A stretch of 64,000 bases of DNA, taken from Nereocystis luetkeana (lineage: Eukaryota; Sar; Phaeophyceae; Laminariales; Laminariaceae). Positions 1 to 63,400 of this stretch are shown here, in pieces. Position 1 is the stretch's first letter. Each line of letters begins with the position of its first letter. The stretch is from assembly GCA_031213475.1 (NCBI GenBank), contig JARUPZ010000019.1:1263001-1327000 (forward strand), given 5' to 3'. The notes beneath the pieces were generated by a model, which saw nothing but the letters and a program-made list of their open reading frames with translations, had not been told where the DNA came from and ran no database searches. A program made the position numbers and the translations under genes.

Positions 1-1680
1 TTCGGCGCGCGGGGGGAGGGGGGGGGTTGTGGGTGGGGGGGGGGGGGCGGGTGTCGCGTTTCGAGCTATGATTCGATTGTGTTTGTGTTGGGTTTTTTTT
101 GGGGGGGGGGGTGTTCGGACCTGTGAGCCGGAGGCCATTACGGCCTCCTCCTCCCTCGTCCCCCGCTGTTCTTGGCTTGGTCTATCAAAAACTCTGATAT
201 TCCGCGACAGATAGTGCGTTGCCGCTCTGGGAGGCAGCGGGGGGGGGGGGGCGAGGCGAGGGCGGCGAAGGGGGCAGCCGCTCTGACGAGGAAGTAAAAA
301 TTGAACTGGTTTTTACCCGAGTGAGAAAAAAAAAGTATACCGTACGTACAAGTTAGTGACACTGTTGTCTTGTGTCAACAGCGGGGATAGTGCTGTAGGT
401 ACCAGGTATCATACAGATACTTCGTGGACCTACTCCTCGGTGCAGTTGTCGGCGTACGTACATGCATGAGGCGGGGGGGGGGGGGTGGATGGGATTGCTT
501 TATGGGATTCCTTAGACGACCAGGAGAGGACCAGCTGCAACATACTATATATAGATATGATATCCATCGTCAGCGGTGGGAAGTTACAGTAGTTTGTTTC
601 CCTTGTGTTGCCATCTGGTCTTTCGTTTGGGCCATTTTTTTCGCTTTTCTGTGTGCCCCCCACCCTACTACCTGCATGCACCCAGCTAACCTGCTAGGGG
701 AGTGGGGTGGCCTGGGAGCGGGGGGCGTTTGTTTTTCTTTCTGCGGCATATTTTTTTACTGGTGGTTGTAGTTATTGTGGTTATTTCGTTCAACCTCAGG
801 AGAAGACATATTTTTATATTTTTCTGCCATAGGTCGGAGCTGGTTTTGTGTTTCTTGTCTTGTCCGCACCATTTGCGTTCGGCGAGGGGGGGGGAGGGGG
901 GGGGGGGGGGTCAGCACGGTTGCGGGGGGGGAGAAGGAAGGTTTTAAAATATCACATTGCTGAACTCAACCAAAGCACTTGCTTCTTTTATTGGTCAAGA
1001 GATGTTTCTGGATACTCTTCTGAGAGTTTTCGCATCTCACTGGCGATGGCTGGCCTATGCATGGCCCCTCGCCGGACGATGTCAAACTGGCTTTGGGCTT
1101 CTCGCGTGTCGTTCCTCGCTTATGCCAGACAACGACCATTATGTATGTGTTCGATTTTCGGCTGCATGAATGACACCACGACGACATTACGTGTTTGGCC
1201 GCGATCGCTATTCGCTCTATACACACAGCAGTAGTGACAAACATTTTCGAACGTTTCCTTTTTGTCGTGTGTCGTTCCCGACGCGCGTCTATGAATGACA
1301 CCAGCAACTGTAGAGTTTTGACACAACATTTCGGATGTTTCCTCCTCGTCTCATATCGTTCCCGACACGCACGCGTTTTGATTAAACAAAATCCATCCAT
1401 CATTCTTGGCACAATTTGCGTTTGTTTGCTGGTAGATGAGACGCCTTTAGTTTAGCTGCGCAAAAAGAGGGTACACAGCCGGGAGAGGAGACCCGATATC
1501 GCCACCGCCGCCCCGCCCTCGCCCCCTTCCTCCCCCAACAAGCAGCCTGCCTGCACCGCACGCAGCAAGCAGCGTTTTGCGTGCACATGCACACGGTGCG
1601 CACGGTAAGTCGACACGAGCACCTCACCTCTCTACTCACACACAAGGTCCTCGCTCTGTTGATAGATACCTGGTACACTA

Positions 1681-1910
1681 TTACCGGGGACCATAGTAAA
1701 TAGGACCAAATATTGTTATTACGGGGGGCCATAGTTAACAGGACCAAATATTGTTAGTAAAAATGGTTAAACTTATAGGTTTTTATGAATACCATAGGTC
1801 CTGTTAACTATGGTCCCCCGTATTAGTAAAAATAGCGAAATACCTTGGTATATACCCTGGTAGATTTTTGTATGGGCCGTAGGTTCTATTTAATATGGTC
1901 CCCCGTGATA
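1681..1910 (+). mobile_element. Family A MITE (outer copy), interrupted by a second copy
   Basis: Family A consensus: about 108 bp, TA-flanked, ends TTACGGGGGACCATAG / CTATGGTCCCCCGTAA, near-palindromic arms with a constant asymmetric centre (GTTAGTAAAAATGG, then AGGTTTTTATGTGTACC). Three arm variants occur: AGTTAACAGGACC, AGTAAATAGGACC and AGTTAATAGGACC. This copy (AGTAAATAGGACC arms) is split by the copy at 1719-1822. Confidence 0.9.
1719..1822 (+). mobile_element. Family A MITE nested in another family A MITE
   Basis: AGTTAACAGGACC variant inserted at the GTTAGT centre of the outer copy; TTA is present on both sides of the insertion. It shows that this variant moved after the AGTAAATAGGACC variant. 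Confidence 0.9.
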
Positions 1911-60400: not shown

Positions 60401-63400
60401 CCGTCCCATCTTTCGCTTGTGTAGAACTAACTCCCTCCCTTGTTTCGGGAGAACATAAAGTTGACCCCGAAACTCACTCCCCGGGAGTGGGTGGGTGGGT
60501 GGGTGGGTGGGAGTGTGTGTGTTTGTTTCGTAAGGACCGCTTGATCTTCATATTTACGTATAAGCGGTCCTTATGTTTTCGCCCATGGTGGTGGTACGAT
60601 ATACCGTGGTGGTCACAGGTAGCAAAAACGCCTGAATATTTTGTTTTTTAGCGCAGGCGGGAGAAGGGTGGGGGGGGGCGGGGGGGGTGTGAGGGTGAAA
60701 GCAAGCAACAACTGGAACAGTAGAGCTGCGCACACCGGTTGCGCACTACAGCGGTCTTTCTGGCGCAACGGTCGTAGTAACGCGTGTCGCGGTGCTGGCG
60801 GGAGGCAGGGAAACAAGGACCCTCCAGCACCGCTCGGGAGTTTCCGTTGAGTGTGACGACGGTTCCCCACATCTCTGGGCGTTCAGTCTCCAGGATGCGG
60901 TGGGGAAACAAGGATCGTGCCTCGACAACAAGCGAGATGTTATAGAACAGACAGATGATATAGAATATAGAACTACATACTTAGATCACAACCCCTGAGC
61001 GTGCTCGGTTGGTGCATCCCTGGCCTCTCTCAGAGCTCCCACTTCCAAACCGCCTCCTTTCATTACTTGCCGGACCTTTCCAGCAGTTCTTTGTTTTTTC
61101 GGCCATTTCTTCCTCCTTTTTTCTTCTTTCGTTTCGTGTGCGTGCGTGTTCTCCGAGCACGGCATCGCGGGAGGACCCGGCACCGTCGCGGGTGCCAGCG
61201 GGTGCTGGCGGGTAGAGGGGGGGTTGCAAGGAGCGCGGTCGCCGCTTTCGTGCCTAGGCGTCGCGTGTGCCTCGAGACACGAGGGATGCATGAATGGGCT
61301 TTGTCTGGCTTCGATTTATGATTGCTGATAGAGTATGTACGAGTTTATAAAGGTCGTTCAGGAAGGCAAGATACTGTTCAAGCGGTGCTTATTTTTGCGA
61401 CCACGCTGAAGTTGAAAAAGGGAGGTGTGCAGTTTGAACACCAACGTTATCGAGCTGGCGAACGACGGCCACGGTGACCACCGGGCTTCACGCGGGGCGG
61501 GCGACGGGGCTGATTGTGGCAGAGAGTGATAAAAGCTTTACCCGGACCGTATCGGTAGCGAGGTGGTCGCGAGAGGGGCGGGCGGCGTACGAGGCTGAGA
61601 GAGAAGCTCTTCTGTACGATTTGTTTCTTTTCTTCTTTTCGACCGGGTGTAAGGTGTTCCAATCAGGCAGAAAAATATTACACGAGAGCGGACGGGGATT
61701 TTTTTTCCTTTCCGAGTTTTCGGTTTCATTTTCATTGTTTTTGCTGCTGTTCCGTGCTGTGCTTTGCATCATGAATGGCTTAAGTCTTTTAGTACCGCAG
61801 TCCCGTTTGGGGACAGACTACTTGAAATTCTAAGTAAATTGTCCCTAAAACGGCACCTCAGTGCTAAAAGGGTTGACTGTGCCTGCACTATTGTCATTAC
61901 GGGGGACCATAGTTAATACCAGGACCTATGGTATACATAAAAACCTACCAGGTATCTATTTAACCATTTTTACTAACATTTTTTTGGTCCTGTTAACCCT
62001 TTTAGAACTGCAGTCTCGTTTTGGGGAAAATTGGGGACAAATTACTTGGAATTTGAGTGCCTTGTCCCCAAAACGGGACTGGAGTTCTAAAGGGGTTAAC
62101 TATGGTCCCCTGGTAATAGACGTGTACCCCCATTTTAACCCCCGCCTGCGCGGTACGTGAAACGCGCCTGCGTTGCTATGAACGCATACATCTGCGTTTT
62201 AAACGTGTCTGTCTGTGACTAATACAACGTGCCCTGCCTGTCAGTGCGGGCCAAAGGGGGAAACATGCGAGCTGCACGCGACTCTGAAAGGGCACCAGCA
62301 CCCGGTGACCTGCGCCGCGGCCGACACCGACTGGCTAGCTTCTGGAGACGCGTGAGAAATGCCACGGGTTGGGGGTCATTTTTGCATACAGTAGTAGAGA
62401 AATAGGAAGCACCCGGTAGGAAATAAGGGATAGGGATTAGACCGGCAGAAAACCGAACCGGCTCTATTCGTAAGAAAAGTCAGGTTGTTGGGGTGGGCTA
62501 TAAGTAACAGCTCCACGATAAACTCTGGTGTTTTGATTGGTCAATGTTGGAGCTCATGCTGCATACTGTCGGATGGCAAGCCTGTCACGGGGGACCATAG
62601 TTAATAGGACCAAATATTGTTAGTGAAAATGGTTAAATATGTAGGTTTTTATGTGTACCATAGGTCCTATTAACTATGCCCCCCCCGTGAGCGCCTCGCG
62701 AGCAGCACGGTCACCACGACAGGAGTCACTCGGGCATGCCGTGCGGGTCGGCTCTCCCTCTCTGCAATCGTAGCTCTCGGACACCAATAGATGCGTGTTC
62801 TCTCTCCCCACAAAAATGAATGCGGTGGCTGGGCGCCGTCGGTGTGAAAAAAAGAAAAAAAAAACAAAAAAAAACGTTACGATGGATCGGGAACTGATAT
62901 ATACGATAGTATCCTGCAGTTTTTGGTATCGTAGAGAGAATTAGGCGTCGTGGTTCATATTCTTGCAGCATTGTTTGGTTGATCGCGCTTGTGGGAGTAC
63001 CAGGTGGATACCGCACCCAACGCACGGTGCAGGCAGACTTCCCCTTTCTTTTTTGTATCGTGCGTTTTTTATGTTTGCTCTGAAGTCTCGAAGAGGGTTA
63101 ACCCCTTTAGAACCGCAGTCCCGTTTTGGGGTCAAACTACTTGAAATTTGACTGGTTTGTCCCCCAAAAACGGGGACTGCGGTTCTAAACGGGTTAAGGG
63201 GAGAAGAAGGAAGGAGCCTTTCGTTTTTTTTTTTAATATAAACCATCCTCCTGTCGTATGCAGCATGCAGCACGCACGCATGCACGCATGCATGCATGCA
63301 CGCATGCATGCATCCTGAAGCGTCTCACGCCGAACGAAAGCATGTGCATGCATGCATGCATCCTGAAGCGTCTCACGCCGAACGAAAGCATGCATGCATG

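Follow-up and report, generated by a model that had tools for sequence, protein, structure and literature searches.

A palindromic word scattered through the genome of the kelp Nereocystis luetkeana is very probably a transposon excision footprint

The closest described counterparts of the sequence presented here are the footprints of Tc1/mariner transposons. Sleeping Beauty is described as cutting three bases inside its ends, which leaves 3-nt overhangs (PMC7827188), and for Sleeping Beauty and Frog Prince the footprint is tabulated as C(A/T)GTA (PMC3878927). For mariner-like elements, remnants of 1-4 nt in plants and of 2-3 nt in animals have been described (PMC9632168), while in the brown alga Ectocarpus 17 Mariner-Tc1 families with almost 12,000 copies, most of them non-autonomous, were reported (PMC12477816). 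Here, we analyze a 9-bp word, TACCWGGTA (W being A or T), in a window of 64,000 nucleotides, namely positions 1263001-1327000 of contig JARUPZ010000019.1 (C19) in the 465-Mb assembly (465,085,209 bases) of Nereocystis luetkeana. It is, very probably, the repaired excision footprint of a TA-inserting cut-and-paste transposon working like Tc1/mariner. We place high confidence in the sites being TA-bounded insertion scars and lower confidence in the identity of the element.

In the window, the exact word occurs 45 times, once more than the 44 counted in the first-pass annotation, and all 12 positions given there as examples are among these sites. Dinucleotide-preserving shuffles (n = 100) yielded a mean of 0.41 sites and three at most, in agreement with the strong excess claimed over an expectation of about 0.5. 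The excess persists throughout the assembly, where 182,395 sites face 1,744 of the control, the same word read backwards; this is about 105-fold and far from expectation. With 0.70 sites per kb, the window is a rich spot in a genome averaging 0.39. The word is also sharply bounded, each of its single-mismatch neighbours being present in 0-4 copies in the window (simple repeats were masked in part of these counts), and its centre is confined to A or T in 45 of the 46 occurrences of TACCNGGTA. Genome-wide, C/G-centred forms number 10,882, the corresponding control word 1,899.

Comparison of paralogues uncovered what kind of sequence this is. For these comparisons, as for the tree, the insertion scan, and the inverted-end check described below, we used 279 kb consisting of the window and the loci hit, with the overlapping loci L005, L006, and L008 excluded; a pair was called bare if the paralogue had exactly two bases at the site and filled if it had the full length. 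Sites with enough flank to be queried numbered 112, of which 20 had paralogues on both flanks and 12 had two-base paralogues, and at those 12 there were 179 bare pairs (150 reading TA) and 14 filled ones. The remaining 39 of the 232 pairs were mostly tandem-array offsets, along with double inserts of 14 and 16 bases and other indels. As the paralogues mostly show a bare TA at the position of the scar, TACCWGGTA is a 7-bp insertion that duplicates TA, which is the behavior of a Tc1/mariner-type footprint. Control words displayed the opposite, their bare and filled pairs amounting to 0/459 for TACC(G/T)TA, 0/70 for TAGTTAATA, 1/569 for TAAATA, 1/134 for TAGATA, and 5/848 for TACATA. Scanning 591 short insertions between paralogues without regard to any word, we found the inserts of the form TA-X-TA to be led by CCAGG (12), followed by CAG (6) and TTAA (4). 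At first pass, no mechanism was offered; the form described there, a core CCWGG flanked by TA, is correct, but the two TAs represent the duplicated target site and CCWGG is most likely what remains of element ends, and the whole is therefore the product of insertion and excision and not a site selected for binding.

A large part of this evidence comes from a family of 105-bp miniature inverted-repeat transposable elements (MITEs) with a TA target and TTACGGGGGACCATAG ends, of which there are 32 copies in the window (for example, 36930-37060 and 58730-58860) and 63 in the 279 kb. After alignment of the 32 window copies, five revealed exactly seven extra bases at one and the same place, one had a 14-base double insertion at this hot spot, and another had an insertion at a different TA, the others being without insert and mostly showing a bare TA there. 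Ten of the 63 copies are scarred; placed on the tree of the family, these require 10 changes, compared with 9.5 for shuffled labels, and the scarring events look independent of each other. Seven of the 45 window sites lie inside this one repeat, so that the earlier statement of differing flanks needs this exception, whereas for 92 of the 112 sites no paralogous copy on both flanks was found in the 279 kb, and the claim that the word is not part of a longer repeat holds.

For word composition, target profiles, decay, and spread, the loci L001-L008 were excluded, and word enrichment was counted over the window and L009-L028, together 263.9 kb. After removal of the 7 bp, the flanks of the scars, like integration targets, prefer W at -7, A at -6, A at -3, and R at -1 (184 half-sites with both sides pooled, from 92 of 105 sites, those flanked by MITE words or reaching a sequence end having been dropped), and T at -1 is reduced to 3% from a background of 19%. 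Their relative information is 1.16 bits; among the control words, TACATA (217 sites) reaches 0.13 bits and TACCGTA (54 sites) 0.61 bits. Such a palindromic preference around TA is a further feature of Tc1/mariner-type footprints, and the flanks of the CCWGG scars look like integration targets. Forms with one mismatch are dominated by transitions (58, with 16.8 expected) over transversions (42, with 33.8 expected), a transition-biased decay as in unselected sequence; the mean change per site, calculated from the mismatch counts, is about 5-6%, and C/G-centred forms reach about 5% of the W forms genome-wide. The scars are spread in a Poisson-like manner, with a mean of 3.0 and a variance of 3.16 per 10 kb in 20 random 10-kb stretches. 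Neighbouring scars 7 bp apart were encountered as eight pairs among the 105 sites, and mixed arrays with other scar types occur as well. Tandem scars were also noticed in nine stretches of viral contigs.

One length of the remnant dominates. Besides 105 W-centred 5-nt forms, we counted 18 four-nt, 25 six-nt, and 13 seven-nt forms, with zero, two, and three bases, respectively, between CC and GG, while other spacings usually gave about six sites. These 4-, 6-, and 7-nt forms look like the result of imprecise end joining, and the 6-nt variants were found bare in eight pairs and filled in none, at three of 17 sites.

The same logic could be validated where a parent is visible. The word TATTAATA, present at 71 sites against 1.8 expected, gave six bare and three filled pairs at three sites each, and in the tandem array of locus L012 the unit CAGCTAGCTGCG occurs without an insert, with a MITE copy (8394-8512) occupying its TA, and, in three instances, as CAGCTATTAATAGCTGCG, so that bare, filled, and scarred states coexist at one homologous TA. 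The MITE prefers TAC-TA-GTA as a target; the sites of TATTAATA share this preference with T at -3 (0.49), A at -2 (0.55), and C at -1 (0.56), the respective MITE ends being 36, 32, and 40 of 63. From the three states in L012 and the matching target preference, it follows that TATTAATA is the excision scar of the 105-bp MITE. The CCWGG sites have a target preference unlike that of the MITE and were therefore probably made by another transposase. A third scar class is TAC(A/T)GTA, identical in form to the published Sleeping Beauty footprint, with 110 sites against 39 expected, 43 bare pairs (five sites), and 28 filled pairs (nine sites). Also enriched are TACGAGTA/TACTCGTA (52, with 9.3 expected), whose sole close paralogue pair is filled and not bare, for which reason this word may not be a scar, as well as TACTCCGAGTA (12, with 0.12 expected) and TAGATCATCTA (18, with 0.05 expected).

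From these observations, we infer the following course of events. The element would insert at TA and duplicate it; upon excision, the transposase would cut inside the element, so that the flanking DNA retains 3' overhangs of about five nt from either end, CCAGG or CCTGG, and the two identical overhangs could anneal except for their central A:A or T:T. Mismatch repair would then yield CCAGG or CCTGG between two copies of TA, so that each excision may leave TA-CC(A/T)GG-TA with a net gain of 7 bp. On our reading, the A/T centre of Sleeping Beauty-type footprints would arise from the mismatch in annealed overhangs, and the A/T-ambiguous centre of our word is what overhang annealing predicts. The TAs of a scar could be hit again, giving 7-bp tandem arrays, and scars would afterwards decay neutrally. 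In theory, there is no limit to the scars that cut-and-paste transposition without net gain can build up, and neutral scars should reach fixation as fast as they originate. Whether a brown-algal lineage of TA-targeting transposons cuts with a 5-nt stagger and has made many jumps with little net amplification, scars far outnumbering copies, is a proposal on which we are evenly divided; on the same even footing, the genome might be a datable archive of excisions, with most of the history of the element kept only as footprints, the 182,395 being the intact ones and decayed ones adding to them. As a guess, end joining and hence scars may be favored in the haploid gametophyte, where repair has no homologous chromosome to draw on.

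Several findings weigh against this explanation. Of the 12 sites behind the paralogue pairs, nine fall in the one MITE family and three in the tandem array L012, so that the pairs are no independent observations; around window position 54058, a further repeat family shows a difference of 8 bp at one site and of 7 bp, in a decayed copy, at another; and the MITE tree rests on 116 columns, its well-supported branches forcing only two changes. The control TACCGTA is flank-biased too (its 0.61 bits), and it also occurs within the MITE. The main form is 5 nt long, outside the 1-4 nt left by described elements, a range that is typical of these and not a stated definition. A parent is missing as well. 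Among the matches listed for TA-flanked inverted ends, the window contains no intact CCWGG-ended element; nor do 288 kb, judged from all 112 rows of TACCWGG without a following TA, some of them counted twice in overlapping loci. Of 32 pairs of inverted ends starting with TACC and lying up to 10 kb apart in the 279 kb, nine begin with CCWGG on one side, and all of these are scars (CCWGGTA); in searches over 279-288 kb, a low-copy parent would escape. For comparison, the MITE copies (63) are about as many as the TATTAATA sites (71), whereas CCWGG scars have no visible parent. Nor did a search of the genome for the transposase domain PF13358 give a match among the 30 candidates scored. CCTGGCAY, which we considered as a terminal repeat of the parent, had to be discarded, as at window positions 54117-54125 it is a decayed scar itself and as few sites exist at wider spacing (see below). 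With about 100 scars and no parent in 279-288 kb, scars must outnumber CCWGG parents by a factor of several tens or more, unless the parents are extinct. Because its remnant measures 5 nt and element ends were not found, we describe the scar as working like a Tc1/mariner footprint and not as a member of that group.

A search for PF01359 likewise found no match in the genome, with its control silent too, and is thus uninformative. Shared extensions of TACCWGG, four rows of TACCTGGGG... and two of TACCAGGCGGATTA, are alike upstream as well and were rejected as element ends, being repeats. A micro-element pattern was found at 75 sites, compared with 12 for the control, and many ends among the approximately 50 places listed read CCTGGCAY. 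At wider spacing only nine sites remained (control 0), close to the 4-5 that paired decayed scars were roughly estimated to give, and at short spacing there is an unexplained excess over that estimate. Locus L007 (2208-2236) carries a 25-bp stretch between TAs with ends CCTGG/CCAGG, possibly a micro-remnant of the missing parent and likewise unexplained. At window positions 29859-31485, a TA-flanked element of 1.6 kb, whose ends read CGTGATACGATCGTTC with one mismatch, lies within an array of scars, with TACCAGGTACCCTGGTA on one side and TACCTGTGGTA on the other.

Missing parents are what a direct insertion would account for, that is, an enzyme adding CCWGG and a TA duplication at TA without there ever being a longer element. 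Abundant scars with no parent in 279-288 kb speak for it, as does the dominance of one exact form over the 18, 25, and 13 sites of other lengths; on the other hand, a parent can be demonstrated for the parallel class TATTAATA, the A/T centre is predicted by overhang annealing, and the 4- and 6-nt variants resemble imprecise end joining, and we regard this explanation as very unlikely. The missing parents would also be explained if long elements of the germ line were removed during development in the tissue sequenced, so that only their scars were assembled, but this requires some 180,000 eliminated elements, while the scars decay like ordinary inherited DNA, and it appears scarcely credible.

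A word that is nearly a perfect palindrome with a one-base centre, reaches 182,395 copies, and forms tandem palindromic arrays might also be a protein-binding or chromosome-structural motif under selection, such as a transcription factor site, an insulator, an origin, or an uptake-like signal. The sites that can be tested are 7-bp insertions with TA duplicated, however, with an integration-type signature in their flanks, mutated forms dominated by transitions as in neutral decay, and Poisson spacing, all of which makes a selected motif very improbable indeed. If the word were a small conserved segment of a single longer repeat, counted again and again, this would fit the seven of 45 window sites in the MITE, yet 92 of 112 sites are without a both-flank paralogue in 279 kb and the word is an addition missing from most MITE copies, so that this explanation can practically be dismissed.

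The individual scars of the window, which carry no strand, are given below by their positions. Exact-word search located single scars at 400-408 (TACCAGGTA), 1667-1675 (TACCTGGTA), 2085-2093, 8287-8295, 9109-9117, 13630-13638, 14889-14897, 15166-15174, 16509-16517, 21491-21499, 21548-21556, 28477-28485, 33095-33103, 33690-33698, 35480-35488, 37255-37263, 38027-38035, 38260-38268, 43392-43400, 45073-45081, 47999-48007, 49188-49196, 53218-53226 (adjoining a MITE end), and 57657-57665. The same search revealed tandem double scars at 8075-8090, presumably due to re-insertion into the TA of a scar, and at 25189-25204, 45890-45905, and 49080-49095. By variant search, 6-nt forms were identified at 1841-1862 (two variants, TACCTTGGTA and TACCCTGGTA), 7911-7920 (TACCCAGGTA), and 35893-35902 (TACCTTGGTA); exact and variant search combined showed a scar and a 6-nt variant in tandem at 29842-29858 (TACCAGGTACCCTGGTA) and 43406-43422, and a triple array TACCGGTA-CCAGGTA-CCTGGTA, consisting of a 4-nt variant and two scars, at 40381-40402.

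Within MITE copies, alignment placed a scar at 16708-16716 (copy 16646-16768), absent from the paralogous copies, and the double insertion TACTTCGTACCTGGTA at 58974-58989 (copy 58925-59021). Alignment together with paralogues placed a second-class scar TATTAATA at 35681-35688, first located with simple repeats masked, and a scar at 35708-35716 in one copy (35642-35764), and further scars at 50368-50376 (copy 50320-50424), 52485-52493 (copy 52432-52546), 61946-61954 (copy 61896-61997), and, at the different TA, 53121-53129 (copy 53096-53218). A copy aligned at 26213-26331 on the plus strand exemplifies the MITE itself, with TA target duplication and ends TTACGGGGG...CCCCCGTAA; its TA at the hot spot is bare. 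Paralogue comparison showed that the scar at 34457-34465 is common to locus L028, where it reads TACCTGGAA, that the scar at 54058-54066 is absent from L007 and L027 with a difference of 8 bp, that the decayed scar TGCCAGGTA at 54117-54125 corresponds to a bare TA in L007 with a difference of 7 bp, and that the TATTAATA scar at 54551-54558 corresponds to a bare TA in L027.

Apart from repeats, the window contains, at 3024-23642 on the minus strand, a gene with many introns that encodes an NAD-dependent DNA ligase of bacterial type, with nine coding blocks (2,265 bp) recognized by similarity. This ligase is the clearest coding stretch of the window; that stretch matches Laminaria digitata best (69% identity along 78% of the query), further named relatives being from Hapterophycus and Ectocarpus, and in a Pfam analysis of 10 window frames the DNA ligase domain alone was above the cut-off. 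No Rfam family or tRNA was found in the window. The gene span includes 11 exact scars, all between coding blocks; that no site falls in an exon, as stated at first pass, is true of these blocks for all 45 sites, but with about 1.6 expected in this length of DNA from the density of sites in the window, this is not significant alone.

Studies of excision footprints usually deal with small numbers of them. This one genome carries about 180,000 scars of a single kind and at least two other kinds, of which the two best profiled differ in target preference. Such a layer makes it possible to measure departures of elements against arrivals, break repair in a brown alga, the base preference of a transposase without knowledge of its element, and, from decay, peaks of activity. 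It is also a warning that an extremely enriched, sharp, and palindromic non-coding k-mer can be a repair scar and not a regulatory motif. For kelp genetics, recent scars would, if confirmed, provide 7-bp presence/absence markers.

Compared with known systems, piggyBac does not fit, having a TTAA target and footprint-free excision, while here the target is TA, flank preferences are others, and a footprint remains. With Sleeping Beauty and Frog Prince our scars share the TA target and its duplication, an ambiguous A/T centre, and, most likely, end nucleotides between the TAs, as far as these are described in PMC3878927 and PMC7827188; unlike the three nucleotides kept there, five would be kept here, CC(A/T)GG, in about 180,000 copies in one genome and with no parent found in 279-288 kb. 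Stowaway, Osmar5, and Ppmar2 leave short end remnants between TAs, as our element probably does, and a case in which a new insertion hit the TA of an earlier footprint has been described (PMC1925063, PMC9632168), but the remnants reported there are of 1-4 nt and varied, whereas here one 5-nt form dominates. The Mariner-Tc1 elements and MITEs of Ectocarpus likewise come from a brown alga (PMC12477816); the main text of that paper uses neither "excision" nor "footprint", and we met no description of a scar layer there. Judged by title, nothing was found in the openly licensed literature on genome-wide excision footprints like these, on the motif strings, or on excision footprints of brown algae. 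Excision that leaves a footprint is an event of a known kind, but neither a form of this length nor occurrence on this scale has come to our notice in this openly licensed literature.

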